Positions 11,939 to 64,000 of a stretch of DNA of 64,000 bases are shown here, in pieces. Origin of the DNA: Sacculina carcini (Eukaryota > Arthropoda > Thecostraca > Sacculinidae). The position numbers were made by a program, and so were the translations under genes. How positions within the stretch are numbered: the first letter of the stretch is position 1; every line of letters begins with the position of its first letter. Under the pieces are notes generated by a model, which saw only the letters and a list, made by a program, of their open reading frames with translations, was not told the origin of the DNA and searched no databases. Location: contig OU696572.1 in the NCBI GenBank assembly GCA_916048095.2, positions 4,239,362 through 4,303,361 on the forward strand. The letters run 5' to 3'.

Positions 11939-11950
11939 AGCTAACCGGCC
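11939..11950 (+). promoter_or_regulatory. E1 putative primer site, complementary to tRNA-Ile 5' end
   Basis: AGCTAACCGGCC follows the LTR directly. Its complement GGCCGGTTAGCT equals nucleotides 1-12 of metazoan tRNA-Ile(AAT) as I recall it (human form). No TGG match to a tRNA 3' end is present. See the findings. Confidence 0.6.
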
Positions 11951-11959
11951 CTTCGAAAA

Positions 11960-12661
11960 ATGGAGTCTTCACGTGGTTTCGACGCTCGCGTGATACCAGA
12001 ATTTGATGGTCAGAGTGACATTGTGGAATGGTGGACTCGCACGGAGATGATGTGTCAGCTCAAAGGCGTCGATGTGATGAGCGTAGTGCCACTACGTCTC
12101 TCAAAAGGTGCGTTTGTTGTGTGGTCCCAACTGCCGGATGAAATTCGCCGTTGCGCGAAAGGAACTCGCAGCGCTTTGTTCTCGGCGTTTGGAGTGGACA
12201 GATTCCGTGCATACGCCCTGTTCACCAGTCGTCGTCTGCAAGAAGGTGAGTCGCCTGACGTATATTTGGCAGACTTAAAAAAGCTTGCAGTTTCATTCGG
12301 TGGCGTATCCGATAATCTGCTGATATGTGCATTTGTAAATGGCCTACCCGATCACGTGGCGACCAGTATTCGTGCAAGCACAGTGTCAGAGTCTCTGTCG
12401 TTGAGTGATATTACGAGCAGAACTCGCATGGTGTTACAAACGACAAAAAGCCCGCCGAACTGTCTAGCCGCCAATGCCGGGTCGCTTTCACCCCGAAAAT
12501 GCTATATTTGCAATCAGACTGGTCACTTGAGTAGAGAGTGCCCCAAAAGGAAATATCGGATGCGATGTTACAATTGTTCCAAGTTGGGTCACATGGCGAA
12601 GGACTGTCAGGGAAACGAGGAAGGAGAGGGTTCGTCAGCGCCAGCACCCTCTCCTCAGTGA
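11960..12661 (+). CDS. gag: E1 Gag, 233 aa with two zinc knuckles
   Basis: Gag builds the virus-like particle and binds element RNA. ATG 11960 is the first start after the primer site. An N-terminal IPEFDG...VEWW block and a helical capsid-like region (residues 1-170) precede two CCHC knuckles, CYICNQTGHLSREC and CYNCSKLGHMAKDC (CX2CX4HX4C, about residues 178-214). The C-terminus is Ser/Pro-rich. The final part overlaps pol, entered by -1 frameshifting at 12610-12616. Confidence 0.88.
   Translation: MESSRGFDARVIPEFDGQSDIVEWWTRTEMMCQLKGVDVMSVVPLRLSKGAFVVWSQLPDEIRRCAKGTRSALFSAFGVDRFRAYALFTSRRLQEGESPDVYLADLKKLAVSFGGVSDNLLICAFVNGLPDHVATSIRASTVSESLSLSDITSRTRMVLQTTKSPPNCLAANAGSLSPRKCYICNQTGHLSRECPKRKYRMRCYNCSKLGHMAKDCQGNEEGEGSSAPAPSPQ
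12610..12616 (+). promoter_or_regulatory. E1 -1 ribosomal slippery site GGGAAAC
   Basis: In the gag frame the codons are CAG GGA AAC, giving G GGA AAC in the X XXY YYZ register. The -1 frame continues as GKRGRRGF into protease. Gag stops 45 bases downstream. Confidence 0.85.
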
Positions 12662-15554: not shown

Positions 15555-15930
15555 TGTATTATGTTTATTGTGTATTGCATGGTATTGTATCTTGTACTAT
15601 ATATAATTGTGTGTGCGTGCATGTGTATTTGTGTGCGTACGTGGGAGTGTGATTTTGTGTACGGTGTTGTGTGCGCGCGCGGAGGTAGCTGCGTCACACA
15701 AGCGCGAGCGATGAGTGCATGCATGCGCGGGTGGTATCCGCCCTGAGTCAACGGTCGCTCGTGCATGCTGGGCAGTGCGTTACTGGTGAAGTGAGAGTGT
15801 GGTGTTTGTGCAGTAGTTTAGAGTGTTGTTCGGTGGAGAGAGTAGTATTTAGTGCATTGTGTTGCGGTGTGATCGTGTGGAATTGTGCTTTCTTGTTCTT
15901 TTTTATTTTTCGTGCTTACATTCAAATACA
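15555..15930 (+). repeat. E1 3' LTR
   Basis: Same 376 bp as the 5' copy, followed by the target duplication GTACT at 15931-15935. Confidence 0.92.
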
Positions 15931-18389: not shown

Positions 18390-19183
18390 TGTAGGCGCTG
18401 CACGCTTGCATATTTTACTTATTTGTTCACGTGTCATGGTAATTAATGCATTGTGTTATTTTAAAGGTGCACTGTTGTTTATATTTATATGTGTGTTATG
18501 ATGTATTAATGTTTTATTTAATATCACTATATAAACGCACAAGCATACATGTCTATATTTGCGGAACGTATGTTATTGCATGTATATGTTATTGAGTGTG
18601 TTGTGCATTGCTTGATGTGTGCAATTCTTGTCTCGCGTCGCGTTCCCTGTACAACATATCATTCTGCGCATTGCGCAAGTAGACCCATGCAGCGCGGATT
18701 TATGTGAGTATCGGACAACTTCCGGTGAGCGCGCTCATTGTCCGATACTGGCATAAATCCGAAATACACTTAGTCACGCGCAGAGCGCTGTGAAGGACCG
18801 CTCATCGCTCGCTGTTAAGTGCCTCAAGATCTCGCCCTTTTCGACCCGTTCATTTTGCCGTGTGTATCATCATCCTGTGTGTATCGTCGATCTGTGTGTG
18901 TCATCGACGACTATTTGTATTGTTTGCGGACGGCGACAATATAGCGTTCGAGAAAACTCGTGTTTTCTGCTAATCGGCCAGATACATCAAGCTGCTCTTT
19001 TAAGAGCATTTAATTGGCGAATAATTTAACCCCGCCTTTTTGAAGGCGCATTGTCAGTTGCGAATTCAACGCATTGTACAGTCTTTGTAAAGACTAAGCG
19101 AATTTAACGCAATTGGCCGAGCGTTTCCGGTGTCGTTGACACACGCGTGTTTGTCAACCTTGGCGTAGCAATGTCTACCAACA
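18390..19183 (+). repeat. E2 5' LTR
   Basis: 794 bp, TGTAGGCGC to CTACCAACA. Contains a long imperfect hairpin at 18695-18761. The Gag ATG (19171) lies within its last 13 bases. Confidence 0.9.
18695..18761. other. Conserved hairpin in E2-family LTR
   Basis: CGGATTTATG (18695-18704) and TATCGGACAA (18709-18718) pair with TTGTCCGATA (18738-18747) and CATAAATCCG (18752-18761), giving two 10-bp stems with a 4-base internal loop. The same structure occurs at 25211-25277 and 51846-51912. Confidence 0.75.
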
Positions 19184-19184: not shown

Positions 19185-19196
19185 TGGTGACCCCGA
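19185..19196 (+). promoter_or_regulatory. E2 primer-binding site, tRNA-Trp type
   Basis: TGGTGACCCCGA, one base after the LTR, is complementary to the 3' end of tRNA-Trp including CCA, as used by CsRn1 elements and some retroviruses. Confidence 0.75.
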
Positions 19197-20122: not shown

Positions 20123-20129
20123 TTTAAAC
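20123..20129 (+). promoter_or_regulatory. E2 -1 slippery site TTTAAAC
   Basis: Gag codons TCT TTA AAC give T TTA AAC in register. With the DNA element removed, the -1 frame reads on into [10 protein letters not shown] and protease, and the zero frame meets TAG at once. Confidence 0.8.
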
Positions 20130-20131
20130 TA

Positions 20132-21626
20132 TACCTTTTACAATTTCATTTGTCCCAACTGAAATCAAAATTGTCCCAACTGAAATCAAAGTTTTCCCAA
20201 CTGAAATCAAAATTGTCCCAACTGAAATCAAAATTGTCCCAACTGAAATCAAAGTTGTCCCAACTGAAATCAAAGTTGTCCCAACTGAAATCAAAGTTGT
20301 CCCAGCTAGAACAACAATGTATGTTATTGATTTTACATTTAATATCAAACTTAATTGTTATCAGTACATTATATTGTATTTCACATGAAAAATTTAACAT
20401 TAGTCGAAAAACATAGGTATGTACTACTTACTATGTACTATACAATTATGTGCTATGGTATGTACTACAATACTATACAAATACTTTACAATACTGTATG
20501 GTATGTACTACAATTACAATGCAGATATGTACCGTACGTACTTACTTTATGAGGAACTCTATCAGCCAATATATCAATGTCAGCGTATATACCACCAGCG
20601 CGTGTACTTAAATTCTAGCAACAAAGCAAAATATCTCAACTCAACACAATCACGACGCAACATGGCCCACTAAAACACCTTCACTAACAAACACGCACGA
20701 ACGTTTTGCGCTAACAACTGCCCTATGGCGCACACTCTATCAGCCAATATCAGTGTCAGCCTATAGCCACTGTTCTCGGAGAGCACTCGCGAGCAAATCG
20801 TGCATACACACACACACCTCTACAGAAACATCACACTTTCAGAGACGGTACATTCCGTCTTATGGCAAGTGTTTAGGCATCACGTGTGTATAGCGCTTGT
20901 CGTTGCTAGCCATCTGTACTATGTTTAATATTGTACGGTATATATATTTGTGTATGGTGTCTATTTGTGTGTGCGAAGTAGTGTGAGTGTATGTATGTTG
21001 TATGCACGTGCATGTGCATGAGCGAGCAGGGGGATGCAGGGGGTGGGCAGTGCGCGCCATGGGGCATTGCGCGCCATAGGGCAGTTGTTTGCGCAGAACG
21101 TTCGTGCGTGTTTGTTAGTGAAGGTGTTTTAGTGGGCCATGTTGCGTTGTGATTGTGTTGAGTTGTGATATCTTGCTTTTTGCTAGAATTTAAGTACACG
21201 CGCTGGTGGTATATACGCTGACATTGATATAATGGCTGATAGAGTTCCTCATATAGTAAGTACGTACGGCACATATCTGCATTGTAATTGTAGTACATAC
21301 CATAGCACATAATTGTATAGTACATAGTAATTAGTACATATCTATGTTTTACGACTAATGCTAAATTTTTCATGTGAAATACAATATAATGTACTGATAA
21401 CAATTAAGTTTGATATTAAATGTAAAATCAATAACATACATTGTTGTTCTAGCTGGGACAATTTTGATTTCAGCTGGGACAATTTTGATTTCAGTTGGGA
21501 CAACTTTGATTTCAGTTGGGACAACTTTGATTTCAGTTGGGACAATTTTGATTTCAGTTGGGACAATTTTGATTTCAGTTGGGACAACTTTGATTTCAGT
21601 TGGGACAAATGAAATTGTAAAAGGTA
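20132..21626. mobile_element. Fold-back DNA element with TA target site
   Basis: A 1,495-bp unit flanked by TA (20130-20131 and 21627-21628) starts TACCTTTTACAATTTC, and its right end is the reverse complement. The arms are inverted for roughly 600 bp (about 20132-20739 versus 21050-21626) around a loop of about 300 bp. Each arm carries subterminal tandem copies of a 20-21-bp unit (GTCCCAACTGAAATCAAAxTT). No transposase is seen, so it is non-autonomous, perhaps Tc1/mariner-like by its TA site. Confidence 0.8.
20149..20305 (+). repeat. Subterminal 20-21-bp tandem array, left arm
   Basis: About eight near-identical copies of GTCCCAACTGAAATCAAA(A/G)TT. A mirror array is at about 21453-21606. 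These repeats create the artificial open frames in this stretch. Confidence 0.85.
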
Positions 21627-21628
21627 TA

Positions 21629-24600
21629 GACAGCCCCCAGCATGTAGCGCAATGTTTGGGAGGCTGCTCTTCCGACGCGCCGCTGCTCTTCATTTGTGAC
21701 AAGACCAGCGGAACAAAGTATCTTGTGGATACTGGCGCTCAGGTGAGTGTGGTACCACCGACGCCGCACCACAAACAAAACCTGACACCGACGACACAGC
21801 GAGTCACCGCCGCAAACGGATCCGAAATTCGAGTTTACGGCAAGCGCAGCATCACCATCCGCTTTGAAAACGGTGAAAAGATTCAATGGGCTTTCGTAGT
21901 TGCGCAAGTCAACATGGCAATCATCGGAGCTGATTTTCTGCACGCGCACCACATCCTGATCGACTTGCGTAACAAGCGCCTCTTACACAGAGGCAACGTT
22001 TGTACTTCGGCAAGAACCTCGACGATTTCTTCAGTCGGCATTCGTGTTGCGACAGTTTCGCGGTACGAACAAATCATGCAGCGCTTCAAAGCGGTGACAA
22101 CAGCCCCGACGGGTCCTGTAGCGGTGAAACATGACGTGACTCACCACATTATCACGCACGGACCGCCGGTTTTTTGTCGCCCACGTCGCCTAGAGCTCGA
22201 AAAAGCCAGCATCGCAAAGCGTGAAATTGACAAGATGCTGAAACTCGGCATTTTGCGTCCATCAAACAGCGCGTGGGCATCAGCACTTCACTTAGCCCCG
22301 AAATCAAACGGTGATTTCAGACCATGCGGAGATTATCGCGCCTTGAATAACCGCACCGTGCCCGATCAATACCCGCTGCCGTACCTGCGAGATTTTTCCG
22401 CTAAGCTTCACGGCTGCAAGGTGTTCTCCAGTCTCGATCTGGTGAGAGCCTACCACCAGATTCCCGTCGAACCGGCCGATATTCCCAAAACGGCAATCAA
22501 GACACCATTCGGCCTCTACGAGTATGTACGCATGCCGTTTGGCTTGAGGAACGCCGGGCAGACGTTTCAGCGTTTTATGGACGGTGTTCTGCGCGATATC
22601 GACGGCGTATTCTGCTATTTGGACGATTTGCTGCTCGCATCGAATTCTCACGATCAGCACGAACGCCTGCTCACGACTATCATGTCTCGTCTGGAGCAGT
22701 ATGGTCTGGTGGTGAATGTTGACAAGTGCGTCATTGGGGTCCCTTCAATCCGATTCCTGGGACATCAAGTGACTGCCGATGGAGTTCTTCCCCTCGAAGA
22801 CAAAGTGACAGCAATCCAGACCTTTCCAAAACCGACAACGCAATCGCAGCTCCACCGTTTTCTCGGGATGGTAGCGTACTACCAACGTTTCATACACAAC
22901 GCGGCTGCAAAGCTGAAGCCGTTGCACGCCCTGCTTACGCACCGAGCAAATCGTTCGAAGGCACCTGTTGAATGGTGTGCGGACACCAACAGAAATTTCG
23001 ACGACGTCAAGCACGCTCTGACAACCTCCGCCATGCTTTCGCACCAAATACCCAGGGCTGAGCTTAGCCTTCACGTTGACGCATCCGATTCCGGCGTCGG
23101 AGCCGTATTACAGCAGCACGTACATGACGATTGGCAGCCCCTCGGCTACTTCTCAAAAACTCTGTCAAAAACCGAGCAAAAATGTAGCACCTTCGGAAGA
23201 GAACTGCTGGGCGTTTATCTGGCCGTGCGTCACTTCAGGCACACGATCGAAGGACGAAATGTCATCGTCTTTACAGACCATCGTCCACTGGTACACGCAT
23301 TGTCTTCCAACTCCGACAAGTACGCGCCACGAGAGATGAGACATCTAGACTTCGTCAGCCAGTTCGTGTCTGACATTCGTTACATCCCCGGTGCTGAGAA
23401 CCAGGTGGCCGACGCTTTATCACGCACGACAGCAGCAATCATTTCGCCCGTCATCCGCACGGATGATTTTGCCTCACTGGCCGCGGCGCAAGCCGAAGAC
23501 CCGTCGCTTTCTTCACTTCGCGATTCTCCAGGCTCCCTACAGCTCCAGAATGTGCAGTTTGGCCATGACTCGCTCTTGTGCGATGTGTCCACCGGCACAC
23601 CACGACCGGTACTGCCCACAGACTTGCGTCGACTGTACACCAAGAGCCTACACGACCTGTCACATCCCGGAGTAGAAGCAACAGTGAAGCTGGTCGCGAA
23701 GCGTTTCGTATGGCCAAACATGGATCGCGACATACGCCGGTGGACGCGTTGTTGCGTGAGCTGTCAACGTTCGAAGATCACCCGCCATACAAAGAGCGCA
23801 GTGTCACCATTTGGGACACCCAGTGAACGTTTCAGCCACGTTCACGTCGACCTTGTTGGACCGCTACCACCGTCGCAGGGCCAGACATACCTGCTCACCT
23901 GCATCGACCGCTTCACGCGCTGGCCGGAAGCCATGCCTCTGCCCGACATAAAAACCGTGACAATCGCACGTGCGTTCGTCCATCAGTGGGTGTCACGTTT
24001 CGGCGTTCCTGACACGATCACCACCGACCGCGGAGCCCAGTTCGAATCGGCTCTCTGGTCCGAACTGAGTCGAGTTCTGGGCTGTCGGCGCATACGCACG
24101 ACCAGCTATCACCCGGCAAGCAACGGTATGGTGGAAAGATTTCATCGACAGCTGAAATCCAGCCTACGCGCGTCGCAGACGTCATGGATGGACGCATTAC
24201 CCATGGCGCTGCTCGGCATCCGATCGACGCACAAGACCGATCTGCAAGCGTGCACGGCGGAGCTTGTGTATGGCACAACACTGCATCTTCCCGGTGAGCT
24301 AGTCAGCGACACGCGCCTCAGCTCCGGCGATCCAGCGTCGTTTGCAGCAGTTCTCCGCAAGAATATGCGCAGGCTTCGTCCCGTCTTGCCGCGACCCTCC
24401 AACGCACCGTCCTTCGTGCCAAAGGCCCTTCAGTCAGCAACCCACGTTTTCGTGAGGCGCGACAGCCACCGTTACCCGCTCGACTGTCCATACGACGGAC
24501 CATACGCCATTGTACAGCGGTACGATAAACATATGGTGGTTTCGCGTAAGGGACACACGGAGACCATATCGATCGACCGCTGCAAGCCAGCTTTCATCGA

Positions 24601-24910
24601 CGACACCTCGCTGCCGACACACGACTTGAGGGTAACACCGGATCCGTGCGAGGACCCACTGGAGGAGCCGCAAACAACAGAATTGGCGATACAAGGTCCA
24701 GCCACCGAACACGTGAGTCCACACAGACACATCGATACACAATCTTCTCCGACACACAACAGTTCATATTCTAATGCGTCTACAACACAGTCCAGAAACG
24801 ATTTGCCACAATCTGTACTGCGCACACGTAGCGGTCGCACAGTACGGCCTCCTTTGCGTTATCGACGTGTCTCTTTCGTCATCGACACATCTAGGGAGGG
24901 GGCACTGTAG
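21629..24910 (+). CDS. pol: E2 Pol: protease, RT, RNase H, integrase (CsRn1-like)
   Basis: This is an open frame from the right edge of the fold-back element to TAG at 24908. Protease [12 protein letters not shown] and IIGADFL; RT with [48 protein letters not shown] and YLDD at about 22617; RNase [34 protein letters not shown] and NQVADALSR; integrase with HxxxH...CVSCQ zinc module and [19 protein letters not shown] and [13 protein letters not shown]. The catalytic set is complete. Sequence upstream of 21629 in the same frame is transposon-arm repeat and not Pol. It depends on the -1 site at 20123 that the insertion now separates from it. Confidence 0.9.
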
Positions 24911-25694
24911 GCGCTGCACGCTTGCATATTTTACTTATTTGTTCACGTGTCATGGTAATTAGTGCATTGTGTTATTTTTAAGGTGCACTGTTGTTTATAT
25001 TTATATGTGTGTTATGATGTATTAATGTTTTATTTAATATCACTATATAAACGCACAAGCATACATGTCTATATTTGCGGAACGTATGTTATTGCATGTA
25101 TATGTTATTGAGTGTGTTGTGCATTGCTTGATGTGTGCAATTCTTGTCTCGCGTCGCGTTCCCTGTACAACATATCATTCTGCGCATTGCGCAAGTAGAC
25201 CCATGCAGCGCGGATTTATGTGAGTATCGGACAACTTCCGGTGAGCGCGCTCATTGTCCGATACTGGCATAAATCTGAAATACACTTAGTCACGCGCAGA
25301 GCGCTGTGAAGGACCGCTCATCGCTCGCTGTTAAGTGCCTCAAGATCTCGCCCTTTTCGACCCGTTCATTTTGCCGTGTGTATTATCAACCTGTGTGTAT
25401 CGTCGATCTGTGTGTGTCATCGACGACTATTTGTATTGTTTGCGGACGGCGACAATATAGCGTTCGAGAAAACTCGTGTTTTCTGCTAATCGGCCAGATA
25501 CATCAAGCTGCTCTTTTAAGAGCATTTAATTGGCGAATAATTTAACCCCGCCTTTTTAAAGGCGCATTGTCAGTTGCGAATTCAACGCATTGTACAGTCT
25601 TTGTAAAGACTAAGCGAATTTAACGCAATTGGCCGAGCGTTTCCGGTGTCGTTGACACACGCGTGTTTGTCAACCTTGGCGTAGCAATGTCTAC

Positions 25695-28795: not shown

Positions 28796-29070
28796 GCTAT
28801 CATGAAATTGAGTAATTCATCTTGCAATTTTTGGAAATTTGAAGTAACACTTGCTATATTCATTGACAGGATTGTGAATGAGGATTCACTATTCTGCAGT
28901 TTACTTAATTGTTCGATAGAATCAATATAATTTGTGTCTGTTGACGAAAAATACTTTTTACTATCAAGTTCAGGTTCATTCTCCGGTTCATTACAAAAAT
29001 TGAATAAGTCTAAATCTAGACATTCGCTTTTACCATCATCATTAAATTCAGATTCTTGCGAATTTGACAT
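28796..29070 (-). CDS. LINE1 ORF2 N-terminus (start of endonuclease)
   Basis: ATG at 29070 begins MSNSQESEFNDDGKSE, an acidic leader of about 65 residues, followed by SSFTILSMNIASVTSNFQKL, the first beta strand of APE endonucleases with the metal-binding Asn. The frame runs into the E2 insertion at 28795 and resumes at 18389. The ORF1 stop lies 59 bases upstream. Confidence 0.75.
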
Positions 29071-29466
29071 ATAGTTTTACCAATAGAAAAAGTGAGAATT
29101 TTGAATGAAAACGCGGGTGTATCACTTATCAATATTTTCGTCGAGCTGATTTTGCTCGCTTCGACGAGGCCTGAACACCGTGTGCTGGCGAGCGCACATG
29201 GGCAGACGGAAATGCTCCCTGTTGTGCCAGCACAATGTCTACCGGAGTACGCGGCTCATGGTCTGGTGTAGTGCGACGCACAATCCTTTGATGAGTGGAT
29301 CGGCCTTTATCCGCAGCCTGATGTGCGTCAGTTTGAGCAGCGTTCACAGTGCTAGTGTGCAGCTTCTCAACATGACCTGCGCTGCTGGATGTGCCATCTT
29401 GAGATGCCCCCGGAACAAGGCTCACGTCGGCAGTCGCATGCTGAGGATCGCGGATACCTCCCGACG
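29021..29466. repeat. 446-bp LINE1 duplication, left of E4
   Basis: Collinear with 33919-34364 at a constant offset of 4898, with one substitution noticed (29041 A versus 33939 T). It spans the ORF2 start and ORF1 end of LINE1. Confidence 0.9.
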
Positions 29467-29469
29467 ACG
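29126..29469 (-). pseudogene. LINE1 ORF1 C-terminus, second copy left of E4
   Basis: This encodes the same C-terminal tail (from the LVPGASQDGTSSSAGHVEKL region to the stop) as the complete ORF1 at 34027-35124. It is part of a collinear 446-bp duplication that flanks E4 (29021-29466 and 33919-34364). Confidence 0.8.
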
Positions 29470-29725
29470 TGTTAGAGTTGATTAAAGAGTCAGCAAACTA
29501 CTGTGTAAAGAGCGCGTGTGCATCGCTGTGCGATACCGCGTTTCAAGTAACGGCGTCCCCATGAGACAACGTTAGGTGCGATGTCCTTGTCAAGGCCAAA
29601 GGCGAGCAGTGTTTGTTCGGTGATCGGCGGTGATCGTGCGTGCGCTGTCTGTGCGTTGTGATTTGTGTGACATAGTCTGTGTGTGTTACTATTTGTGTGT
29701 GTTTATATATACAGTCTGTCTTACA
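29470..29725 (+). repeat. E4 5' LTR
   Basis: 256 bp, TGTTAGAGT to GTCTTACA, the same as the 3' copy. Confidence 0.92.
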
Positions 29726-29737
29726 AGCTATTTCGGC
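29726..29737 (+). promoter_or_regulatory. E4 putative primer site, complementary to tRNA-Phe 5' end
   Basis: AGCTATTTCGGC directly follows the LTR. Its complement GCCGAAATAGCT equals nucleotides 1-12 of cytosolic tRNA-Phe. The same 12-mer is at the same place in E5 and E7, and the sequence diverges right after it. Confidence 0.65.
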
Positions 29738-29745: not shown

Positions 29746-30462
29746 ATGGATGAGCTGAAGTTGACAGATTTTGTTGAGAGATACGACGGTAGTGGAGATC
29801 TCGACACGTGGGTGGAGAAACTCAGGTACGCTTGTTCACTGAAGGGCATACATGACGTGGCTAAAGTCATCCCGATATTTTTGTACGGTCGGGCGTTCAA
29901 TGTGTATAGACAGTTATCTGAGAGTGACAAAAAGAAAGAGTTGATCGTTATTGCCTCCCTGCGTCAGTCTTTTGGGTTGACTCCATGTGTCGCTTTCTCA
30001 ATGTTCAAAGAGCGTCAGTGGAAGATTGCTGAGGAGACCTTGGACGAATATATGTCTGATTTGCGTTCGTTGGCTAAATGTGTGGTGGGTGAGAACAGCG
30101 AAAGCTCCCGCTGGGTTGCTTGTCAATTTCTTTGCGGTTTGCCAACTACAACGGAGAACACGGTGAGAGCCATGCACGGAGCTTCACTTGAGCTTGACAA
30201 TTTACTGAGTTGTGCTAAGCAGGTGGTTGCTGGCAAAGCAGGTGAGACAGATGTTACACACAATGTACATGCCTATTCCGCCTCCAGTTCAAGGAGATTG
30301 ATATGCTTTGAGTGCCAACAAGAGGGTCACATTGCCAGAAATTGCCCAATTCGTAGAAAACGACGGCAAGTGTGCTTCAACTGTGGCGCGTCCGGTCACA
30401 CTGCAAACAACTGTCGCAAGTCGGAAAACTTGCGAGGGGGGCCGGCTCAATCTTCAGCGTAA
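29746..30462 (+). CDS. gag: E4 Gag, 238 aa with two zinc knuckles
   Basis: ATG 29746 (MDELKLTDFVERYDG) is the first start after the primer site. The capsid-like N-terminal region aligns in wording with E1 (LKGIHDVAKVIPIFLYGRAF; DEYMSDLRSLAK; CQFLCGLP). Knuckles CFECQQEGHIARNC and CFNCGASGHTANNC lie at about residues 186-222. A degenerate -1 heptamer, G GAA AAC, is at 30423-30429, the same position as in E7. Gag stops at 30460-30462. Confidence 0.85.
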   Translation: MDELKLTDFVERYDGSGDLDTWVEKLRYACSLKGIHDVAKVIPIFLYGRAFNVYRQLSESDKKKELIVIASLRQSFGLTPCVAFSMFKERQWKIAEETLDEYMSDLRSLAKCVVGENSESSRWVACQFLCGLPTTTENTVRAMHGASLELDNLLSCAKQVVAGKAGETDVTHNVHAYSASSSRRLICFECQQEGHIARNCPIRRKRRQVCFNCGASGHTANNCRKSENLRGGPAQSSA

Positions 30463-33400
30463 GAACCTGTCGACCCCCGATAATTCCAGGTTGTTGATAA
30501 AGGTGTGGTGTGATGATGTGAAACGACCTATGTCCGTTCTCGTCGACACTGGCAGTACGAACTCCATTGTCATGACGAAATCAATGTTACGTATGGTACC
30601 AGAGCAAAAATGTGCATTGAACCTGCAGTTGTTGAGTGGTGTAAGCGTTACCGCCAGTAAGAGCTTTATTCTAAAAAATGTTCGATTTTCTTCTGATGGT
30701 TGTGTTAAAATCAAATCGCTGCGCGTTTGGTTGTGCGATTCTAACTATCGTCCACCGTTTGACATTATTTTCGGTATGGATGCAATATTGGCAGCCGGTG
30801 GAATGAATGTTTCGCCAGATGGCAAAGTGTCGTTTGGTGTGTCAAGTACGGGTGCACCGTGGGGATCTTGTCAGCAAAAGATTCCTTCACTTGATGCTGC
30901 AAAGCCTCAAGCTGCTGTGCTGCAGTCGACGCCAAGCCACACAGGGACCTCCACATTGGAGATAGTGGATTGTGATTTCAAGGCATTTTTTGACGGGAGG
31001 AAGTGGATTGTGAACTGGTTCTGGGAGAATGAAGTACCCAATAGAAAAATCAATTGTGCGAACTATGCTATTAAGCCGACAGAAAAAGCTGCTTTTGAAG
31101 CCGAGGTTAATTCGTGGATCGAGGAAGGTGTACTCATTCCCTACGACGAGAAAATGCACGGTGTCATTGGAGCAAAATTGCCCTTGTTTGCAGTCAAACA
31201 GGAGAAGAAGGACAAAATCAGACCCGTGCTGGATTATAGGCGATTGAACTGTTATATTCGGAGTGCTCCTGGTATGGATTCGGCAGTGTGTGATGAAAAG
31301 CTCCGTAAGTGGAGGCGCATGGGCAGTGATGTGTCGATAATCGATTTGAAAAAAGCTTATCTCCAGATACATATGGCAACCGAACTACAAAGATATCAAG
31401 TGGTGGAATTTATGGGGAAGCAGTATACCATGACCAGGCTGGGTTTTGGACTATCAATCGGTCCCAAAGTCATGACGGAAATACTGAAGAAAGTTTTTCT
31501 CAAAGCCGATTTTGACACCAGTGGAGTTGACTTTTATATCGACGATGTGATAGTGGATAAATCTCGTGTGAGACCAGAACAAGTTGTTCAGCATCTGCAA
31601 AAATATGGTTTGATCACAAAAAGTCCTTGCGATCTGAACGGTGCCCGAGTACTCGGACTCAAAGTGGAAACCAAGCCATCTGGAGTACAGTGGCAACGAG
31701 ATGGTGATGTTCCCGTTATGCCAGATGTTTTGACAAAAAGGTCTCTGTTTTCATTGTGCGGCAAGTGGATCGGCCACTTTCCTATAGCCGGTTGGCTTCG
31801 AGTCGTATGTGGACTAATCAAGCGGCGCGCGTCTGAAGGCTTAGAAAACAAGTCGAATGCGCATTGGGATGCAGAAGTAGATGAACATACTGCAGTAATT
31901 ATTCAATCAATTGCTGACGAAGTGAAACATCGAGATCCGGTACGTGGTTTTTGGTGTGTTGAGGATCGCCGACCCAGGATATGGGTCGATGCCAGTAACA
32001 TCGCCACTGGCGTTGTTCTTACAGTGGATGGAAAACCAGTGGAAGATGGTTGCTGGCTGAGGAAGCCGAACGACTCTTCGCATATTAACGTGGCTGAGTT
32101 AGACGCGGCGGTTAAAGGAATAAATTTGTGCTTGAAGTGGGGATTCCGAAAAGCTGAGTTGATAACCGATTCGTCTGTCGTTCATGGTTGGCTGACCAGC
32201 GCGGTTCATAATACACATCGGATTCGAACACACGGCATGTCCGAAATGCTGATCCGCAGACGACTGGATGTAATCCGTGAATTGCTGGCATCGTTTTCAC
32301 TGGAACTGCATGTGAGACAAGTAGACAGCAAAGAAAACATCGCCGACGCCATGACACGTCCACCCCGTTTCCTGCCGTTACTGTCTTCTGGTTCAACAAG
32401 TGGATGTTACGCTCTAACCAGGGATGAGCGCGAGGTCATACAAGGCATCCACGATAGCAGTGGGCACATGGGTGTACAGCGTACAAAGGAACTCGTTTCA
32501 AATGTGCTTCCATCTGTGAGTTCTATTGAGGTGGACGAGGCGATACGTCATTGCGAATCATGTCGTCGGATAGATCCGGTAAATCGCACAAAGAATCATC
32601 ATGGCTCACTCAGTGTTCCCGCCGTATGGAGAAGACTTGCAATAGATATTACGTACTACAACCATGCCACGTACTTGTCCATCATCGACTGCTGTTCTAG
32701 GTTTACTATCTGGAGAAAATTGAGCAATGAAAATGCTGCGTCGGTGGTTGCCGCTCTGGAGAGTGTATTCGTTGATTTTGGTCCACCCTGTAGCGTTTTA
32801 TCCGATAATGCGCCGGTATTTCTCAGTACTGAGTTCTCCAGCCTTCTGCACGAGTGGGAGGTTTATCATGAAAAGTCGTGTGCATATCGTCATCAAGGAA
32901 ATGGCATATGTGAACGTGTACATCGCACTATCAAACGAATGGCGTCCAGAACAGGATGCACAATCGGTAAAGCAGTTTTTTACTACAACGCGACGACAAG
33001 TCAATCTACCAGTGAGACGCCATTTGCAAGTGTTTTCAGAGCCGCACCGCAACTACCGAGAATACGTCGAAGTCGTGTTCTGACATCTACCAAGTTACGT
33101 CAAACTCGGACGAATTCGTGCCGTCGTGATGGAGTTTCATGCATGTACAAACCTGGTGACATGGTATTTCTACGCCCACCGGATGGTCGCTGCACTACAA
33201 AATGGACAGGACCGCATCGAGTGGAAAGTGCGAATAGATGGACAGTAAATATTGGTGATGGTGTCAACAGACATGTGTCGCATGTTCGTCCAGTGGGACG
33301 TTCGTCAGACGCACGCACGGATCAGCCGTCGGACGCGTCGGACGCACGGATCAGCCGCACGATCGTGTCTTCTGTTCCCGTACAACATTCCAATGGATCC

Positions 33401-33538
33401 AGTGCTGACAGCGAAGATACGGCACGGAATGTAGTTTCACTACAGGACTCAAACGTTCGTGATGAAGTCCCTGCTACTGGGCGGTACAATTTTCGTGAGC
33501 GGGCCAACTTGAGGCGACCTGCTCGTTATCGGTCGTAG
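30463..33538 (+). CDS. pol: E4 Pol: protease, RT, RNase H, integrase
   Basis: Pol is in the +1 frame relative to gag, unlike the -1 of E1, E5 and E7. The -1 frame after the heptamer reads GKLARGAGSIFSV, then stops at 30495. A one-base deletion at about 30455-30475 would explain this. In order: protease VLVDTGSTNS; RT IRPVLDYRRLN, IDLKKAYLQI, LTRLGFGLS-like MTRLGFGLSIGP, YIDD at about 31536; RNase H WVDAS, ELDAA, ITDSS, NIADAMTRP; integrase HHCC-like module, AIDITYY, LSDNAPVF and GNGICERVHRT. The rest of the frame is open to TAG at 33536. The exact start is not defined by the sequence. Confidence 0.85.
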
Positions 33539-33662
33539 TGTACGATTATATTCCTGTGTGTATTGTTCATTTGATCATTTGTTCAGTTGATGTTTATGTT
33601 ACAACGTATTTTTGGGATGTTTTCCAAGTTTGAGGTGATATTCCTTTGCTGACTCGGGGGAG

Positions 33663-33918
33663 TGTTAGAGTTGATTAAAGAGTCAGCAAACTACTGTGTA
33701 AAGAGCGCGTGTGCATCGCTGTGCGATACCGCGTTTCAAGTAACGGCGTCCCCATGAGACAACGTTAGGTGCGATGTCCTTGTCAAGGCCAAAGGCGAGC
33801 AGTGTTTGTTCGGTGATCGGCGGTGATCGTGCGTGCGCTGTCTGTGCGTTGTGATTTGTGTGACATAGTCTGTGTGTGTTACTATTTGTGTGTGTTTATA
33901 TATACAGTCTGTCTTACA
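33663..33918 (+). repeat. E4 3' LTR
   Basis: 256 bp, same as the 5' copy. Confidence 0.92.
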
Positions 33919-34364
33919 CATTCGCTTTTACCATCATCTTTAAATTCAGATTCTTGCGAATTTGACATATAGTTTTACCAATAGAAAAAGTGAGAATTTT
34001 GAATGAAAACGCGGGTGTATCACTTATCAATATTTTCGTCGAGCTGATTTTGCTCGCTTCGACGAGGCCTGAACACCGTGTGCTGGCGAGCGCACATGGG
34101 CAGACGGAAATGCTCCCTGTTGTGCCAGCACAATGTCTACCGGAGTACGCGGCTCATGGTCTGGTGTAGTGCGACGCACAATCCTTTGATGAGTGGATCG
34201 GCCTTTATCCGCAGCCTGATGTGCGTCAGTTTGAGCAGCGTTCACAGTGCTAGTGTGCAGCTTCTCAACATGACCTGCGCTGCTGGATGTGCCATCTTGA
34301 GATGCCCCCGGAACAAGGCTCACGTCGGCAGTCGCATGCTGAGGATCGCGGATACCTCCCGACG
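33919..34364. repeat. 446-bp LINE1 duplication, right of E4
   Basis: Partner of 29021-29466. It begins at the last base of the E4 3' LTR and runs into intact ORF1 sequence on its right. Confidence 0.9.
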
Positions 34365-37810: not shown

Positions 37811-40318
37811 TCATATTTCGAGATTACATTTTTCAATATAACTCATTACTGCATCAATATTATCGCTGTTGTTGTCAATTACATTGACTAGAGTTAGCGG
37901 CATTTTTCTATTCTTGCAGTGTTCATATAAAAGTTTGCGCTGATTTGCAAACTTTTTGCACGTTACTAATATGTGCTCTACTGTGTTAAGAGTGTTACAC
38001 ACTGAGCAGGTTGGTTTGTGACCAGTGCGGACCAGACTAACATAGACCATGTATGTGTGTCCAGTTCTGAGACGAGCTAATGTGACTCTTTTTTTCTACT
38101 CCTTATGTGATTTGTGGGCCATGCTCTGAAACAACGTTTGATTGTTTTCAAATGATTATTTTCAACTGCATTCCATTTGTTTTCAAGGTATTCGTTAAAT
38201 CTTAAATTGATTAGGTTACCAATGTCAAATACTGTTAGACCTGTTTGCAGAGGCGGCTCGGTCAGGGCGGACTTTGCTAGAGCATCAGCGATTTCGTTGC
38301 CCACAATCCCCATATGTCCTGGAATCCAAACAATTTGTATATGTGTATGGTGTGAGATGCTGTCTGCAAGTCTGTTTATGGCGGAAACGAATATATTGTG
38401 GTTTTGTTGGGTATTGTTAATTGAATGTGTTGCACATTGTGAATCTGTGAATATAATAGCTTGTGATATTCTCATAGATTTTATATAGTGTATAGCATAT
38501 AAAATGGCCAGAAGTTCTTCTGTATATATACTTGTGTGATCCGCCAGTCTGATTTTATCGAAATGAGCCCCAATATGTATGGACGCCGCACTGCTTTTGT
38601 GACCAATTTTAGATCCATCTGTATATATAATGTCCTTCCCCTGGTGTAAATCCATGAATTCTCGAAATGTAGCCTGAACTTCAGCGTTAGTGATGATATT
38701 CTTTTGTGTGTGTGAAAAGATATTTTCTTTCAATTTTGTTCATATTCCAAAAATACAAGTGTCTTGGTCTTAGTTCAATTTCGAGATTTTCCAGTTTAAT
38801 TTCGCCGCTGATTATGTTGCAGGTTTGGGAGAAATTGAGGGGAAGCCGGTTTGGACTTGTGTTATTGTTCAGTATAGCCTTGATTTTAGTATTATCTGAA
38901 CTTTTCATTCTTAGCATGTACCGAAGTGTTATCAATTTTATCCTGTCTTGTATTGGGGGTATGCCAGTATCTGATTGTAGGCTAATGATGGGAGTGCTCT
39001 TACATGCCCCGGTGATAATTTGTAAGCATTTGTTTTGCATTTTTTCAAGTTTTTGTAAATTTGAATGAGTGTTATGTCCTATAAATTGAGTTTGGTATTC
39101 CAAAACCGATCTGATTGTTGATTTGTATAACATAGTGAGAATTTTCCTGTTTGCACCCCAGTCTTTACCCGATATATGCCGTAGGAAATTTATTCTTTTC
39201 GCACACTTGTTAATGGTGTAATTTATATGTTGGTTATAATTTAAACGTGTATCAATGATTACACCCAAATACTTATGTGATTTAACTTGTTCTATAACAA
39301 CGTTATCGATTTTAATAGATCTTGGCAATGACTATGTGCTTGAATTTTCAATAAATAACGATTTGGTTTTTTTCAGCTGAAATTTTGAGACCTTTTGAAT
39401 TTAGAAATATTTTCAGATTGCGTATGCCCCGCTCTAAGGTTTTTAAAATTGGACTCCTCTGCCTCCCGGTGCACCAAATAGCTATATCATCTGCATATAA
39501 TGCATAATTTATACTCGAATTTTTAAAAACCTGATCAATGTCATTTAACGCTAAATTGAATAATAATGGTGATAAAACCGACCCTTGAGGAACACCATGG
39601 TTTGTTTGGTGAATGTCCGAAAGTATATTACCACATCTGATTTGAATTTGCCTACTTTCTAAAAAATTATATATATATTTCTGCATATTACTCTGTATAT
39701 TTAGTTTTGTGAGTTTTTTTTAATTGCATTGTGATGCACATTATTAAACGCGTTACTTAAATCAAGAAAAACTACCAAAAGTCTTTTGCCTATCTTTAAA
39801 GCTTCTTTTGCAGCGTCTGTTATCAGTAATATAGGTTCTGAAACGGATCTATTTTGTCTAAAGCCAAATTGATATGGGTCTAACATGTTGTTGTTTTCTA
39901 AAAATGTTGTTAGTCTGAGTTTAATAATTCTTTCTAATAACTTACTTGTGCAACTATTCGCAATGCTGTGGATTTTTCCCTGGTTTCAAAATGGGGATCA
40001 CTAATGAAGTATTCCAAATTTGGGGATAATTTTGTTGAAGAAAAATATCGTTAAAATACCGTGAAATTATGGTTTTACTGGAGGTGAACATGTGCTTGAA
40101 AAATTCATAAGAAATCTGATCCTGACCTATAGATGTTTTTCCGGAAGTAGAAATAGCAATTTCTAATTCATCAAATGTAATAGGCACGTTGTAAATTTCT
40201 TTATTTGTTGTTAATGTATTGTTGTGTGTGAGAGGAGTGATGCTTAGAGTCGAATATTGTGTGTTTGATGATAATGAACTGTAATATTGACCTAGTGCAT
40301 TTCCTACTTCTTTTGGTT
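37811..40318 (-). pseudogene. LINE2 ORF2: reverse transcriptase, RNase H and C-terminus
   Basis: RT blocks appear in order in changing frames: TSIGQDQISYEFFKHM and LVIPILKPGKNPQH (40187-39954), YQFGFRQNRS and VVFLDLSNAFNNV (39886-39701), GVPQGSVLSPLLFNLALND and YALYADDIAIW (39600-39470), and HKYLGVIIDTRLNY (39280-39230). RNase H follows: IIYTDGSKIGHKSSA, TEELLAILYAI, IFTDSQCATHS and WIPGHMGIVGNEIADALAK (38640-38260), keeping D-E-D-H-D. A CSVCNTLNTVEHILVTC zinc-like tail ends at about 37814. There are several frameshifts. Confidence 0.78.
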
Positions 40319-40323: not shown

Positions 40324-40451
40324 TGTGGTTAGTGCGTGTATTAATTGTTGTATATTTGTATATGTGTGTAAGAGTTTGTAAGCGTGCGCGGCTTTATTTC
40401 CAGTTTCATATCATCGATATAATTCGCATTAAATACATCGTTCACATTACA
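40324..40451 (+). repeat. E5 5' LTR, internally deleted
   Basis: Equals the first 83 and last 45 or so bases of the 3' LTR. The junction falls at a shared GTGCG. Confidence 0.88.
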
Positions 40452-40463
40452 AGCTATTTCGGC
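40452..40463 (+). promoter_or_regulatory. E5 putative primer site, complementary to tRNA-Phe 5' end
   Basis: AGCTATTTCGGC directly after the LTR, as in E4 and E7. Confidence 0.65.
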
Positions 40464-40471: not shown

Positions 40472-41240
40472 ATGGCGAATCTGAAGCTGCATGACATTGT
40501 ACGGCCGTTTGATGGGAGCCAGGATGTCGTACAATGGATCGACAAGTTTGATAGAGTGGCAGAACTACGGAAGATCGACGCCCTCGAGACCTCTGTCCCT
40601 CGATGGCCCGGCGTACGCAGTGTTCTGTGAAATGGATGAGGTCAAAAAGTGTGTGTATTCGGAGATCAAAAGATCACTGCTGGACGCTTTCGCTACAGAC
40701 AGGTTCTCGGCATACGAAATGTTCACCGCGTGCAAATGGAAGGGAGAGCCAGCCGATGTTTACATGGCGAGCCTGAGGCGACTTGCTAAGCTTGCTAATA
40801 TTGAGTGTGACAATGTTCTCAAGAACGCTTTTGTGGTGGGATTGCCGCGTGAGGTCTCACGAGGATTGAGAACCATGCCGAATTTGACAACAATTGCTTT
40901 GGCGTCGGTCGTCGAGCGTGCACGCATCCTTTTGTCAGAGATCGGCGAGGGTAGTACTGCAATGGTGGCACGAAACAGGCAACACTCTCGCAATGAGAAA
41001 ATACAATATTCGACGCAGAGAAGGTGTTTCAATTGTGGTGGCCCTCATCTCGCAAGGTACTGCAATGCGCGGAGCAGCGGTGGTTCATTGCAAAATGTGC
41101 GTCGCCAATTTGAATGTTTCGGATGCGGGGGACCGCATCTAAGGCGAAACTGTCCTCGCGAACAAGAAAGAAGACAACAGACGGGAAACGACGAGGGGAG
41201 ATCTGGTGCGCCAGCAGCTCTCCCACTGACCAGTCAGTAA
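40472..41240 (+). pseudogene. gag: E5 Gag, zinc knuckles, one frameshift
   Basis: ATG 40472 (MANLKLHDIVRPFDGSQDVV) gives the lineage N-terminus. Around 40598-40604 the frame shifts, and the homologous sequence continues as LDGPAYAVFCEMDEV in the frame running to TAA 41238. Two short knuckles, CFNCGGPHLARYC and CFGCGGPHLRRNC, have CX2CX3HX4C spacing, one residue shorter than usual. The C-terminal part overlaps pol through the slippery site at 41183-41189. Confidence 0.82.
41183..41189 (+). promoter_or_regulatory. E5 -1 slippery site GGGAAAC
   Basis: Gag codons ACG GGA AAC place G GGA AAC in register. It is at the same position and sequence as E1. Confidence 0.85.
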
Positions 41241-44083
41241 TGGCGCTTCCGCGTGTACCAGCGGTAGTCAATGGTAGAAATGTGCATGCTGTGATGGACA
41301 CGGGCTGCACAATGTCGATCGTGTCTCGATCGATTGCTGCAAATGCGCGTGGCAGCTGCAGCGTGACTACCGTCGATGGTCGTAGAGTGCCGTGTGCTGG
41401 TACGGACAAGGTGCGAGTGGCTGTAGGTGGCGTGGAACTCTGGTTGCCTGTGATAGTGGCTAACGATCTATTGGGCGAGGTTGAAGTGATTCTTGGCATG
41501 GACGTCGTTGCGAGGCTCGGGAGCGTATACGTGGACGAGCGTGGTGTAGTATTGGGGCCTAGAGAATGTTCGGTGCCTAATGGCAGTCCGGTGTGCAGTG
41601 TGATTGCAGGTACTGTTCCGAGAACAGCGAAAACTGAGGTGTGTCCGTCGGATGAACTGAAGATAGATGACTGTGATTTTGAGGCTAGATTCGATGGTGA
41701 CTCGTGGACAGTGAAGTGGAAATGGTGCGACGGGGCCCCGGTGCTCAGAAACGTTGTCGGTAGTTACAGCAGTGTAAGGAAGCCCGAGTTGAAGGATAGA
41801 TTTGACGAAGAGATTCGGAGATGGATATCACAGGGCTGGTTGATACCTTGTGGAATGACCGGGGGCATACTTCCGTTGATGGCCGTTGATCAACCGAATA
41901 AGAAAAAGGTGAGGCCGGTGATTGACTACCGCGAACTCAATAAGTACGTTGAGAGTCACAGTGGGTTCGACGCTCCGGTGTGTGTAGAGACATTGCGTGG
42001 CTGGCGCAGGTGGCCGGGCCCGCTGAAATTGGTCGACCTGAAGACGTCTTATCTGCAGATCAAAATGGATGAAACTTTATGGCAGTACCAGCAAGTCGAG
42101 TTTAATGGGGACAGGTACTGTCTAACGAGACTGGGATTCGGTCTTAGTTGTGCACCCCGGGTGATGACGAAGATTTTAAGGAAGGTATTGAGCATGAACG
42201 AACGAATCCAGTCAGGAACGAGCTCGTATATAGATGATATTCTGGTAAACGAGAGTGTTGTGAGCGCCGCCGATGTCATCAATCATTTGAAAAAGTACGG
42301 TTTGGAGGCGAAGGTACCTGAGGACATGGAAAATGGTCGAGCGCTTGGACTGAATCTGCGAGTAGACAGAGGTGTTTTGGTTTTCAGCAGAGGGAATGAA
42401 CTTCCGGATGATGTAGAAGATGGCACGACCAAGAGACAACTGTTTTCCTTGTGCGGTAGACTAGTTGGGCACTATCCTGTGGCTGGGTGGTTGAGGGTTG
42501 CCGCTAGTTTTGTGAAAAGATCGACACAAAATATTCATTGGGATGAAAGCGTGAGCTGTGAGACTTTGGTAATGGCACGAGAAATGCTCAAGAAAGTTCT
42601 GTCGAATGATCCAGTGAGTGGCAGATGGCATGTACCTGACAAGCTGAAAGGAACCGTCTGGTGTGATGCTAGCAGTCTTGCTCTAGGAGTCATTCTTGAG
42701 GTGGACGGCGAGGTAGCAGAAGACGCGTCGTGGCTGCGAAAGTCAGGTGATGCACATCACATCAACGTTGTCGAGATGGACGCCGTGTTGAGAGGAGTCA
42801 ACCTAGCGGTGAAATGGGGTATTCAGCAGATCGAGGTGAAAACGGATTCTTCCACGGTGCTTGGATGGCTGAAATCGGTGCTAAACGGCGAGAGCCGGAT
42901 GAAGAGCAGCAGTGCGGCTGAAATGTTGATCAAACGCAGGCTTGGCGTGTTGAGTGATCTGGCTGATGAACTCGGTCTGAGAATATCAGCATCTTACGTT
43001 AGGTCAGAACATAACAAGGCGGATGCACTCACCAGGGTGCCGAGGTCGTGGCTACGGATGTCTGAGGCAAATAATGAGACGGGTCTTATGACGGTGGAAG
43101 AGTTACATGGTCTGCATAATTTTGGTGTCGACAGAACCTTGGCGCTGAGTAGAATGGTAGATCCCAAAGTGACCAAGAAAGAAACGGAGGACTGTGTGAA
43201 AAGATGTTTGCGTTGTCAGTCGGTGGATCCTGCACCAGTAAGACACCCTCCTGGCGAAATTAGTGTTGAAAATAATTGGAGTCGCTTGTCGGTGGACGCT
43301 ACAGAGTACAAGGGCCAGTGCTATGTGACTATTGTGGATTCCGGCCCATGTTGCTTTGCGCTATGGAAAAAGGCGCGCTCCGAGAACGCCGACGACGTTG
43401 TGAGGATCCTGAACGACGTGTTTCTCGAAAGAGGACCTCCGGATGAACTGTTGCTGGACAACAGTGCCGCGTTCCGATCGTCTGTACTGGCAGAGCTGTG
43501 TGACAAGTGGGGTGTCATCAGAAGGTATCGAGCAGCTTATCGACCTACGGGAAACGGGATCGTAGAACGTCATCATCGCACTGTGAAGAGAATGGCGGAA
43601 CGATGTGGCAAAACTCCACCAGAAATGGTGTTTTGGTACAACATGGCACCAAAGAATATCGCCGACCCTGAGACGGCTCCAGCACGCGGGCTGTACCGCT
43701 ATGAGTGGAGACATCCCATGACTCCTGTTGAGGGTTCTCGGAAAGAAGACAGTGGCTGGCGAGTGGGAGATGAGGTGCTGGTGAAACCACCTGGAGCGAG
43801 ATGCACCACACATTGGCGCAGAGGTAGAGTTACTGGTGTGACATCTTCCAGTAATATTGACGTCGACGGCACACCGCGCCACGTCTTAGACGTGCGGCGC
43901 TTGTTTGCGGATGAATCGGACGAAGAGGACGAAAGCGAGGCGCGGCGTTATACTGGTGAAGCGGAGATGCGGAGTTTCGGTGAAGAGCATCAAGGCAGGC
44001 CCGTAAGAGAAAGGCGCAGACCTCGGTGGATGGAAGATTACCACGTTGGAGATGATGAAGACATCACGGGGGCGTGTGGTTAG
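41183..44083 (+). CDS. pol: E5 Pol: protease, RT, RNase H, integrase
   Basis: An open -1 frame of about 966 codons. In order: protease AVMDTGCTMSIV and ILGMDVVARLG; RT VRPVIDYRELN, VDLKTSYLQIKM, LTRLGFGLSCAP, YIDD at about 42230; RNase H WCDASSLALGV, EMDAV, KTDSS, NKADALTRVP; integrase with a CLRCQ zinc half, VDATEY, LLDNSAAF and GNGIVERHHRT; and a VLVKPPGARCTTHWRRGRVT barrel. RT motif A has DLKTSY in place of the DLKKAY of its relatives. Catalytic residues are all present. Confidence 0.88.
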   Translation, partial: GKRRGEIWCASSSPTDQSVMALPRVPAVVNGRNVHAVMDTGCTMSIVSRSIAANARGSCSVTTVDGRRVPCAGTDKVRVAVGGVELWLPVIVANDLLGEVEVILGMDVVARLGSVYVDERGVVLGPRECSVPNGSPVCSVIAGTVPRTAKTEVCPSDELKIDDCDFEARFDGDSWTVKWKWCDGAPVLRNVVGSYSSVRKPELKDRFDEEIRRWISQGWLIPCGMTGGILPLMAVDQPNKKKVRPVIDYRELNKYVESHSGFDAPVCVETLRGWRRWPGPLKLVDLKTSYLQIKMDETLWQYQQVEFNGDRYCLTRLGFGLSCAPRVMTKILRKVLSMNERIQSGTSSYIDDILVNESVVSAADVINHLKKYGLEAKVPEDMENGRALGLNLRVDRGVLVFSRGNELPDDVEDGTTKRQLFSLCGRLVGHYPVAGWLRVAASFVKRSTQNIHWDESVSCETLVMAREMLKKVLSNDPVSGRWHVPDKLKGTVWCDASSLALGVILEVDGEVAEDASWLRKSGDAHHINVVEMDAVLRGVNLAVKWGIQQIEVKTDSSTVLGWLKSVLNGESRMKSSSAAEMLIKRRLGVLSDLADELGLRISASYVRSEHNKADALTRVPRSWLRMSEANNETGLMTVEELHGLHNFGVDRTLALSRMVDPKVTKKETEDCVKRCLRCQSVDPAPVRHPPGEISVENNWSRLSVDATEYKGQCYVTIVDSGPCCFALWKKARSENADDVVRILNDVFLERGPPDELLLDNSAAFRSSVLAELCDKWGVIRRYRAAYRPTGNGIVERHHRTVKRMAERCGKTPPEMVFWYNMAPKNIADPETAPARGLYRYEWRHPMTPVEGSRKEDSGWRVGDEVLVKPPGARCTTHWRRGRVTGVTSSSNIDVDGTPRHVLDVRRLFADESDEEDESEARRYTGEAEMRSFGEEHQGRPVRERRRPRWMEDYHVGDDEDITGACG

Positions 44084-44528
44084 TGCGTGTATTAATTGTT
44101 GTATATTTGTATATGTGTGTAAGAGTTTGTAAGCGTGCGCGTGCACTATTGGACTTGTTATTGGGAAAGTTACTGCAGGTGGCTCGAATGTCATGCGCGT
44201 GCAACTGAACATGTGTGTGTACGCGTGTGCGTGTTTGTATGTTCGTGTGTGCGTGAGTGACAGTTGATTGCGTCAGCGAGAATGTGACGAGTCAGTGGGA
44301 GTCTTGGTGTTGCGTTGGTTTAGTGTGCGGTGTTTTGTGCGGCGATAGTTGTTTCAGTGCTTTTCGCGTGTGCGTGTGTCTAGTGGTTTTACGTGCGAGT
44401 GTGAGAGGATCTTGTGTGCCGTATTCTTCTCCGTGTTCTTTGCTGGCGTCGTCTGAACTATTGTGCGGCTTTATTTCCAGTTTCATATCATCGATATAAT
44501 TCGCATTAAATACATCGTTCACATTACA
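44075..44528 (+). repeat. E5 3' LTR, full length
   Basis: 454 bp, TGTGGTTAG to CACATTACA. Confidence 0.9.
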
Positions 44529-45558: not shown

Positions 45559-45571
45559 TTCGTGACCCCGA
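45559..45571 (+). promoter_or_regulatory. E6 primer-binding site, tRNA-Trp-like
   Basis: TTCGTGACCCCGA directly after the LTR matches the tRNA-Trp 3' complement except in the CCA part. Confidence 0.55.
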
Positions 45572-59343: not shown

Positions 59344-60011
<668 letters not shown>

Positions 60012-63765: not shown

Positions 63766-64000
63766 GAGGCGAATTAGAAAAGACGATGTATTAAATGACA
63801 CACAAAATAATGATGTGGAAAAATCAGCAAAGAAGAAAAAGACCAAATAATCCAGAACACAACGCACGCGAAAACCTCTGTCGAAAGCCGACACGCCAAA
63901 ACACCAAAATATCCCACAGAAACTCTCCACGTGCGAGCCACGACAAACCGCCACACACACTGCCTCCAAAGTTCATTCACCCCACGAACAATCACTCGCA
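63734..64000 (-). repeat. E7 5' LTR, partial
   Basis: Matches 59344-59610 with a few substitutions and continues beyond the window. The Gag ATG is at 63765, inside the LTR. Confidence 0.88.

Follow-up and report, generated by a model that had tools for sequence, protein, structure and literature searches.

A Ty3-like retrotransposon lineage of Sacculina carcini with a probable primer site for the first twelve nucleotides of tRNA-Phe or tRNA-Ile

The LTR retrotransposons E4, E5 and E7, located in a 64,000-nt stretch of the Sacculina carcini genome (the window), carry the same 12-nt sequence immediately after the 5′ LTR. We take its complement to be nt 1–12 of metazoan tRNA-Phe. We consider it probable that this sequence is the minus-strand primer site of a Ty3-like lineage, at which the 5′ end of tRNA-Phe or, in a second version of the site, of tRNA-Ile would anneal, be cut after U12 and prime DNA synthesis as a dodecamer. 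The corresponding reading of a first-pass annotation of the window, which had considered tRNA-Phe, is supported overall and is strengthened by the co-variation of the site with a second tRNA. The features of the three elements are:

29469–29725, forward strand: E4 5′ LTR, 257 bp, 100% identical to 33662–33918
29726–29737, forward strand: E4 putative primer site AGCTATTTCGGC, complement of what we take to be nt 1–12 of tRNA-Phe
29746–33538, forward strand: E4 gag and pol; gag ATG at 29746 (our reading), pol at 30308–33538 with RT, PF23088, RNase H (RVT_3) and integrase
33662–33918, forward strand: E4 3′ LTR
40324–40451, forward strand: E5 5′ LTR, shorter than its partner at 44075–44528
40452–40463, forward strand: E5 putative primer site AGCTATTTCGGC
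41114–44083, forward strand: E5 pol with protease, RT, PF23088, RNase H and integrase
44075–44528, forward strand: E5 3′ LTR
60026–63025, reverse strand: E7 pol
63722–63733, reverse strand: E7 putative primer site AGCTATTTCGGC
63734–64000, reverse strand: E7 5′ LTR, cut by the window end, matching 59344–59610 at 98.5%

Exact matches, together with LTR pairs that end one base before the 12-mer, confirmed the earlier observation that it directly follows the 5′ LTR in three elements. The spacer between LTR and AGCTATTTCGGC is zero in E4, E5 and E7, and the LTRs end in ACA. In E5, the LTR pair agrees at 99% over its last 67 bp (40385–40451 and 44462–44528), up to base 40451. Comparison of the three elements also bore out the claim that their likeness stops after 12 bases, as the sequences diverge beyond base 12 of AGCTATTTCGGC. 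Within the window, CAAGCTANNNNGGC occurs three times against 0.06 expected from shuffles, and ARAGORN detected no tRNA genes.

Additional features of the same region were recorded. About 320 bp of the E5 3′ LTR (44142–44461) are absent from the E5 5′ LTR. In E7, an open gag frame runs from an ATG within the LTR through the primer site (63722–63765, reverse strand), such that the site is translated. The flanks of E4 (29021–29466 and 33919–34364) form a direct duplication of approximately 446 bp (99.6%) that resembles a target-site duplication of giant size; recombination of two insertions lying close together would account for it as well. An occurrence of ACAAGCTA at 38457–38464 on the reverse strand was discarded, as it lies in a stretch that we read as LINE-like and looks like chance.

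Across the host genome assembly (264,436,087 bases), AGCTATTTCGGC gave 1005 + 1016 = 2021 matches, compared with 2 + 3 = 5 for the reversed control. In 39 matches, GCCGAAATAGCT is followed by a base other than T; the corrected number is approximately 52 of 2021, because the last letter of the pattern loses about one-quarter of the non-T matches. Hence about 97% of the AGCTATTTCGGC copies are preceded by A, the usual LTR terminus. We sampled 20 AGCTATTTCGGC loci (L001–L020) from 100 matches listed, all on contig C1. CA precedes the site in 19 of them, the exception being L001 with CT. Long flanks were obtained for 17 loci (L001–L017, the flank of L001 coming from the wrong side; L018–L020 were too short and were excluded). 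In nine of these, the last 40 LTR bases are repeated downstream at 37–40 of 40 positions without the 12-mer behind them, and no such downstream copy was seen in the other eight.

Adding the four sites of the window, three of Phe and one of Ile type, and two more in locus L022 to the 20 sampled loci gave 26 sites for analysis. Their LTR ends fell into 19 clusters at 60% identity, an upper figure, as the ungapped comparison splits relatives (L009/L015 and L005/L013) and the true families are fewer. The cluster representatives carry A at −1 (18/19), C at −2 (19/19), A at −3 (17/19) and T at −4 (15/19), and are variable farther upstream. G at −1, which pairing with C13 would require, is found in none of the 19, so that pairing to C13 is excluded in these representatives. 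Separately, base 13 past the LTR is G in 0 of 19 representatives, which may be chance, and a second LTR lies about 0.4–1.9 kb downstream of the site in L006, L003 and L022, such that short relatives retain the Phe site too.

As judged from sequence, the strongest evidence that the site may read a tRNA 5′ end is its co-variation with tRNA-Ile. The first-pass annotation had described the 12-mer as shared by E4, E5 and E7, which holds; a fourth member of the lineage, E2, has a different 12-mer at 11939–11950. Tabulation of the bases past the LTR in more lineage members, as suggested there, gave the Phe 12-mer or, in E2, the Ile-type 12-mer. The features of E2 are:

11563–11938, forward strand: E2 5′ LTR, 376 bp, 100% identical to 15555–15930
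11939–11950, forward strand: E2 putative primer site AGCTAACCGGCC, complement of nt 1–12 of a host tRNA-Ile-type gene
11960–15531, forward strand: E2 gag (11960–12661) and pol (12538–15531)
15555–15930, forward strand: E2 3′ LTR, with GGGGGATA, a likely polypurine tract, just before it

The E2 LTR ends in ...AAATACA, followed by AGCTAACCGGCC. Its complement, GGCCGGTTAGCT, opens host tRNA genes at C1:664070 and C1:835998, of which 35 bases agree, save one difference, with what we take to be metazoan tRNA-Ile(AAU), the anticodon being only partly covered. Genome-wide, the AGCTAACCGGCC pattern produced 172 + 174 = 346 matches, tRNA genes counted in, versus 6 + 5 = 11 for the control. The first 31 of 100 matches listed comprised 28 of LTR type (AGCT then TG), two tRNA genes and one with AG, and about ten distinct LTR ends were distinguished by eye among the 28. 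The Phe and Ile sites have AGCTA in common because both tRNAs share U8–U12, and the acceptor-stem part differs exactly as the two tRNAs do. Lys and Thr-CGU, chosen as host tRNAs with the same U8–U12 core, were the sole other versions counted genome-wide; neither the Lys-type site (0 versus 0 in the control) nor the Thr-CGU-type site (2 versus 1) was enriched. For ten further host tRNA dodecamers, the exact matches in the fetched loci were tRNA genes only.

All four elements (E2, E4, E5 and E7) encode RT, PF23088, an RVT_3-type RNase H and integrase in Ty3 order. The RVT_3 match is close to the threshold in E2 and E4, and just two of the four, E5 and E7, have a protease match at E ≤ 0.001. Their LTRs and the pol order protease–RT–RNase H–integrase are those of Ty3/gypsy-like elements (Metaviridae). 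The E5 pol retrieved 398 protein matches, the best 120 of which bear PF23088, and the PF23088 RT relatives among proteins include a cephalopod record (Argonauta hians). Residues D518, E554, D578 and D637, presumably the RNase H catalytic residues, are invariant in 24 aligned sequences that include the four elements. We found the lineage RT at 10 of 25 Phe sites; at the others, the element was short or non-autonomous, or the fetched flank was devoid of RT. Across those Phe-site elements, RT identity to E5 ranges from 43 to 52%, yet the ten Phe elements cluster with the Ile element in a single RT group (100/100) whose inner branches are mostly unresolved; one site has therefore persisted over deep divergence. 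In this tree, which is confined to the present genome, two window elements whose sites contain GTGACCCCGA fall outside the group. Matches of the RTs to solved RT structures were weak. Elements with ordinary tRNA 3′-end sites coexist in the same window:

19185–19196, forward strand: contrast site TGGTGACCCCGA, an ordinary tRNA 3′-end site, 6 nt past the repeat 18390–19178
45562–45571, forward strand: contrast site GTGACCCCGA, in element E6 of another RT lineage

We take TGGTGACCCCGA to be the site for the 3′ end of tRNA-Trp, and the repeat 18390–19178 as the LTR of an element from another RT lineage. Between this repeat and that at 24906–25694 lie inverted repeats with 21-nt tandem arrays (20129–20734 and 21068–21629; 89%). 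A search for DNA-level relatives in viral and prokaryote contigs found none, and a search for gag homologues returned one protein whose match begins past the primer site and is uninformative on it.

In the mechanism that we propose, the site would pair with the 5′ dodecamer of a host tRNA, not with its 3′ CCA end. The dodecamer would consist of seven bases of the acceptor stem, followed by U8, A9 and three bases of the D stem. The commoner version of the site fits tRNA-Phe and the other tRNA-Ile, and the predicted duplex would be bounded by the tRNA 5′ end on one side and the LTR terminus on the other. Copying of the template beyond the primer begins with the final base of the LTR. Since the spacer is zero and the A at the LTR end cannot pair with C13, the primer 3′-OH should lie at U12, and since an intact tRNA has no 3′-OH at U12, the tRNA would have to be cut. 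A packaged tRNA would anneal by its 5′ end and be severed between nt 12 and nt 13. The nuclease would most likely be the RNase H that the element itself encodes, by analogy with Tf1, which processes the 5′ end of its mRNA in this manner. The dodecamer would then prime strong-stop DNA, which is predicted to open with GCCGAAAUAGCU (or GGCCGGUUAGCU) and to continue into the complement of ...ACA. We infer the cut, the 3′-OH at U12, the nuclease and the priming itself from the anatomy of the site. The computed energy of the 12-bp duplex is −18.7 kcal/mol for Phe and −23.1 kcal/mol for Ile. A 12-nt tRNA 5′ fragment is unusually short, which we count against this best reading.

We assign the commoner site to tRNA-Phe on the basis of the metazoan sequence and of two chimaeras described below. 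The first-pass claim that the 12-mer complements tRNA-Phe nt 1–12 stood as regards its geometry, which is found genome-wide and recurs with tRNA-Ile; the Phe gene itself was not found in the assembly searched by pattern, BLAST and family search. Neither GCCGAAATAGCTC...TTCGGC nor the tRNA-Phe 5′ half with one mismatch had a match in the assembly, and no match to the anticodon-arm pattern at three mismatches was tRNA-Phe. None of the 39 non-T matches after GCCGAAATAGCT is a tRNA, and a single GCCGAAATAGCTNAG match, likewise not a tRNA, was ruled out as tRNA-Phe. The Rfam search scored 63 of 15013 candidates and the assembly has N stretches, so these negatives do not imply that the organism lacks the gene.

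BLAST with the metazoan tRNA-Phe sequence identified two places, L021 and L022, both of which are retroelement–tRNA-Phe chimaeras, carrying tRNA-Phe nt 38–72 and nt 38–67, respectively. In L021, nt 38–65 are followed by the TTTCGGC of the primer site and then by element internal sequence, which matches elements in L005, L006, L013 and L016 at 73–76% and at a near-equal distance (42 nt versus 40 in L005). Because TTTCGGC is present both in the primer site and in the 3′ acceptor strand of tRNA-Phe, a growing minus strand could have switched templates to the tRNA once it had copied the site. In L022, nt 38–67 open the 5′ LTR of a small Phe-site element, apparently in place of the first bases of that LTR. 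Both chimaeric copies begin at nt 38; position 37 of eukaryotic tRNA-Phe is a bulky or methylated G that blocks reverse transcriptases. The tRNA piece of L021 has two mismatches, one at position 58, the usual m1A site in tRNA. The chimaeras, two cases only, place tRNA-Phe with the RNA of this kind of element during DNA synthesis; what they show is tRNA-Phe 3′ sequence as template, not the dodecamer as primer. Both loci also contain inverted copies. That of L022 is 93 bp long and perfect (551–643 and 1682–1774): part of the upstream flank recurs, in inverted form, immediately behind the 3′ LTR of the small element, which looks like aberrant integration. In L021, the element interior recurs in inverted form (93%) in the flank that lies upstream of the tRNA-Phe piece (1214–1387 and 1562–1735), as after fold-back of a cDNA end.

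The main alternative retains the same site and dodecamer, with a host nuclease cutting the tRNA before annealing and the free 5′ fragment being captured. The enzyme would cut internally in the manner of RNase P, as in Ty5, or be some other tRNA endonuclease. For Ty5, host RNase P is reported to make such an internal cut (PMC5371799), and tRNA fragments are common. However, a host cut would have to fall exactly at the LTR start in two tRNAs, which a cut at the duplex end explains for free, and the presence of tRNA-Phe nt 38–72 near element RNA in the chimaeras suggests that more than a 12-mer was present. We regard this alternative as unlikely, though deserving of serious consideration.

A clearly less probable arrangement is one in which the tRNA 5′ end merely anchors the molecule and the 3′ CCA end primes elsewhere, in a bipartite manner as in Ty3. 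Bipartite sites are used by both Ty3 and Ty1 (PMC5371799). At 25 sites, however, we found no shared second stretch complementary to tRNA-Phe within ±350 nt, the longest complementarities being 0 or 7–10 nt in differing places. Moreover, the site has no TGG, and the LTR ends coincide with the 12-mer, fixing the start of synthesis there. In one family only, represented by E7 (site at 63722–63733, reverse strand) and L011, a 10-nt complement of tRNA-Phe nt 32–41 occurs about 306 nt downstream of the site.

It seems very improbable that the tRNA match is incidental and that the 12-mer was conserved for regulation or packaging, or was left over from a shared ancestor: its location beside gag could suit a leader motif, but the Ile version, despite several base differences, agrees with a host tRNA 5′ end at all 12 positions, the two other tRNA versions (Lys and Thr-CGU) are without enrichment, and the shared sequence ends at the tRNA 5′ end. 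The Tf1 primer is 11 nt long. Tf1-type self-priming, in which the RNA of the element itself would pair with the site through its 5′ end, shares the position and nearly the length seen in Tf1/Tj1 (PMC4600332), but is the least credible explanation and was rejected for the sites analysed, as none of the 26 sites has a complementary 12-mer in the 267–1200 nt upstream (best 7–10 of 12), the upstream stretches of E4, E5 and E7 hold no exact complementary match, and AGCTATTTCGGC is common to differing LTRs.

LTR retrotransposons are known to prime from the 3′ end of a tRNA, from half a tRNA or from RNA of their own. If the proposed mechanism is correct, a primer made of the first 12 nt of a tRNA would link half-tRNA priming and self-priming, and both ends of the primer site would gain a physical definition. 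The mechanism would predict a 5′ tRNA fragment that is very short and bears a 3′ hydroxyl, and would offer a route for 5′ tRNA fragments to act on retroelements. TGG-based primer-site searches would miss these elements. A primer consisting of tRNA nt 1–12 is not described in the literature searched, which was mainly open-access, did not extend to bioRxiv preprints and was in part available as partial text.

Several known systems share individual traits with the present site. The hemiviruses (copia, Ty5, 1731 and Osser) likewise use a 5′ tRNA fragment with an internal 3′-OH as primer (PMC1181622), the 3′-OH here being a predicted one. There, the 3′-OH lies at nt 40 in the anticodon stem-loop, whereas here the match covers the very 5′ end, nt 1–12, and ends at the LTR, away from the nt 40 region; furthermore, hemiviruses are Pseudoviridae, whereas the pol order here is Ty3-like. 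In the fungal Copia element FunCo1, the site is likewise complementary to a tRNA, tRNA-Lys (PMC5445492), but to an internal region of it, not to the 5′ end, and the superfamily is another. In bivalve TRIMs, similarity to tRNA-Tyr directly follows the terminal repeat and is likewise not to the 3′ end, but involves the central part of the tRNA, and its authors were unable to identify a canonical site (PMC6934838). Most Skipper elements of dictyostelids also have no recognizable primer site (PMC5006619). Canonical Ty3/gypsy elements, exemplified in the window at 19185 and 45562, have the same layout of LTR, site, gag, pol, PPT and LTR, but their site begins with TGG and pairs with the tRNA 3′ end, whereas here TGG is absent and the other tRNA end is matched. 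The RNase H also differs, as it matches RVT_3 (weakly), whereas the window's other elements match RT_RNaseH. As in Tf1/sushi, the site would form a short duplex with the free 5′ end of an RNA, and the cut would fall at the duplex end. Tf1-type elements use their mRNA 5′ end as primer and need the RNase H domain for cutting it (PMC4600332). Unlike in Tf1/sushi, the primer here would be a tRNA instead of the element's own mRNA, complementarity of the Tf1 type being absent from the 267–1200 nt upstream of the 26 sites. On balance, we lean towards a fourth mode of LTR-retrotransposon priming, in which nt 1–12 of tRNA-Phe or tRNA-Ile would replace a Tf1-like self-primer, the element's RNase H would cut at the duplex end, and a deep PF23088 lineage would have moved from one tRNA to another through replacement of the seven letters that match the acceptor stem.
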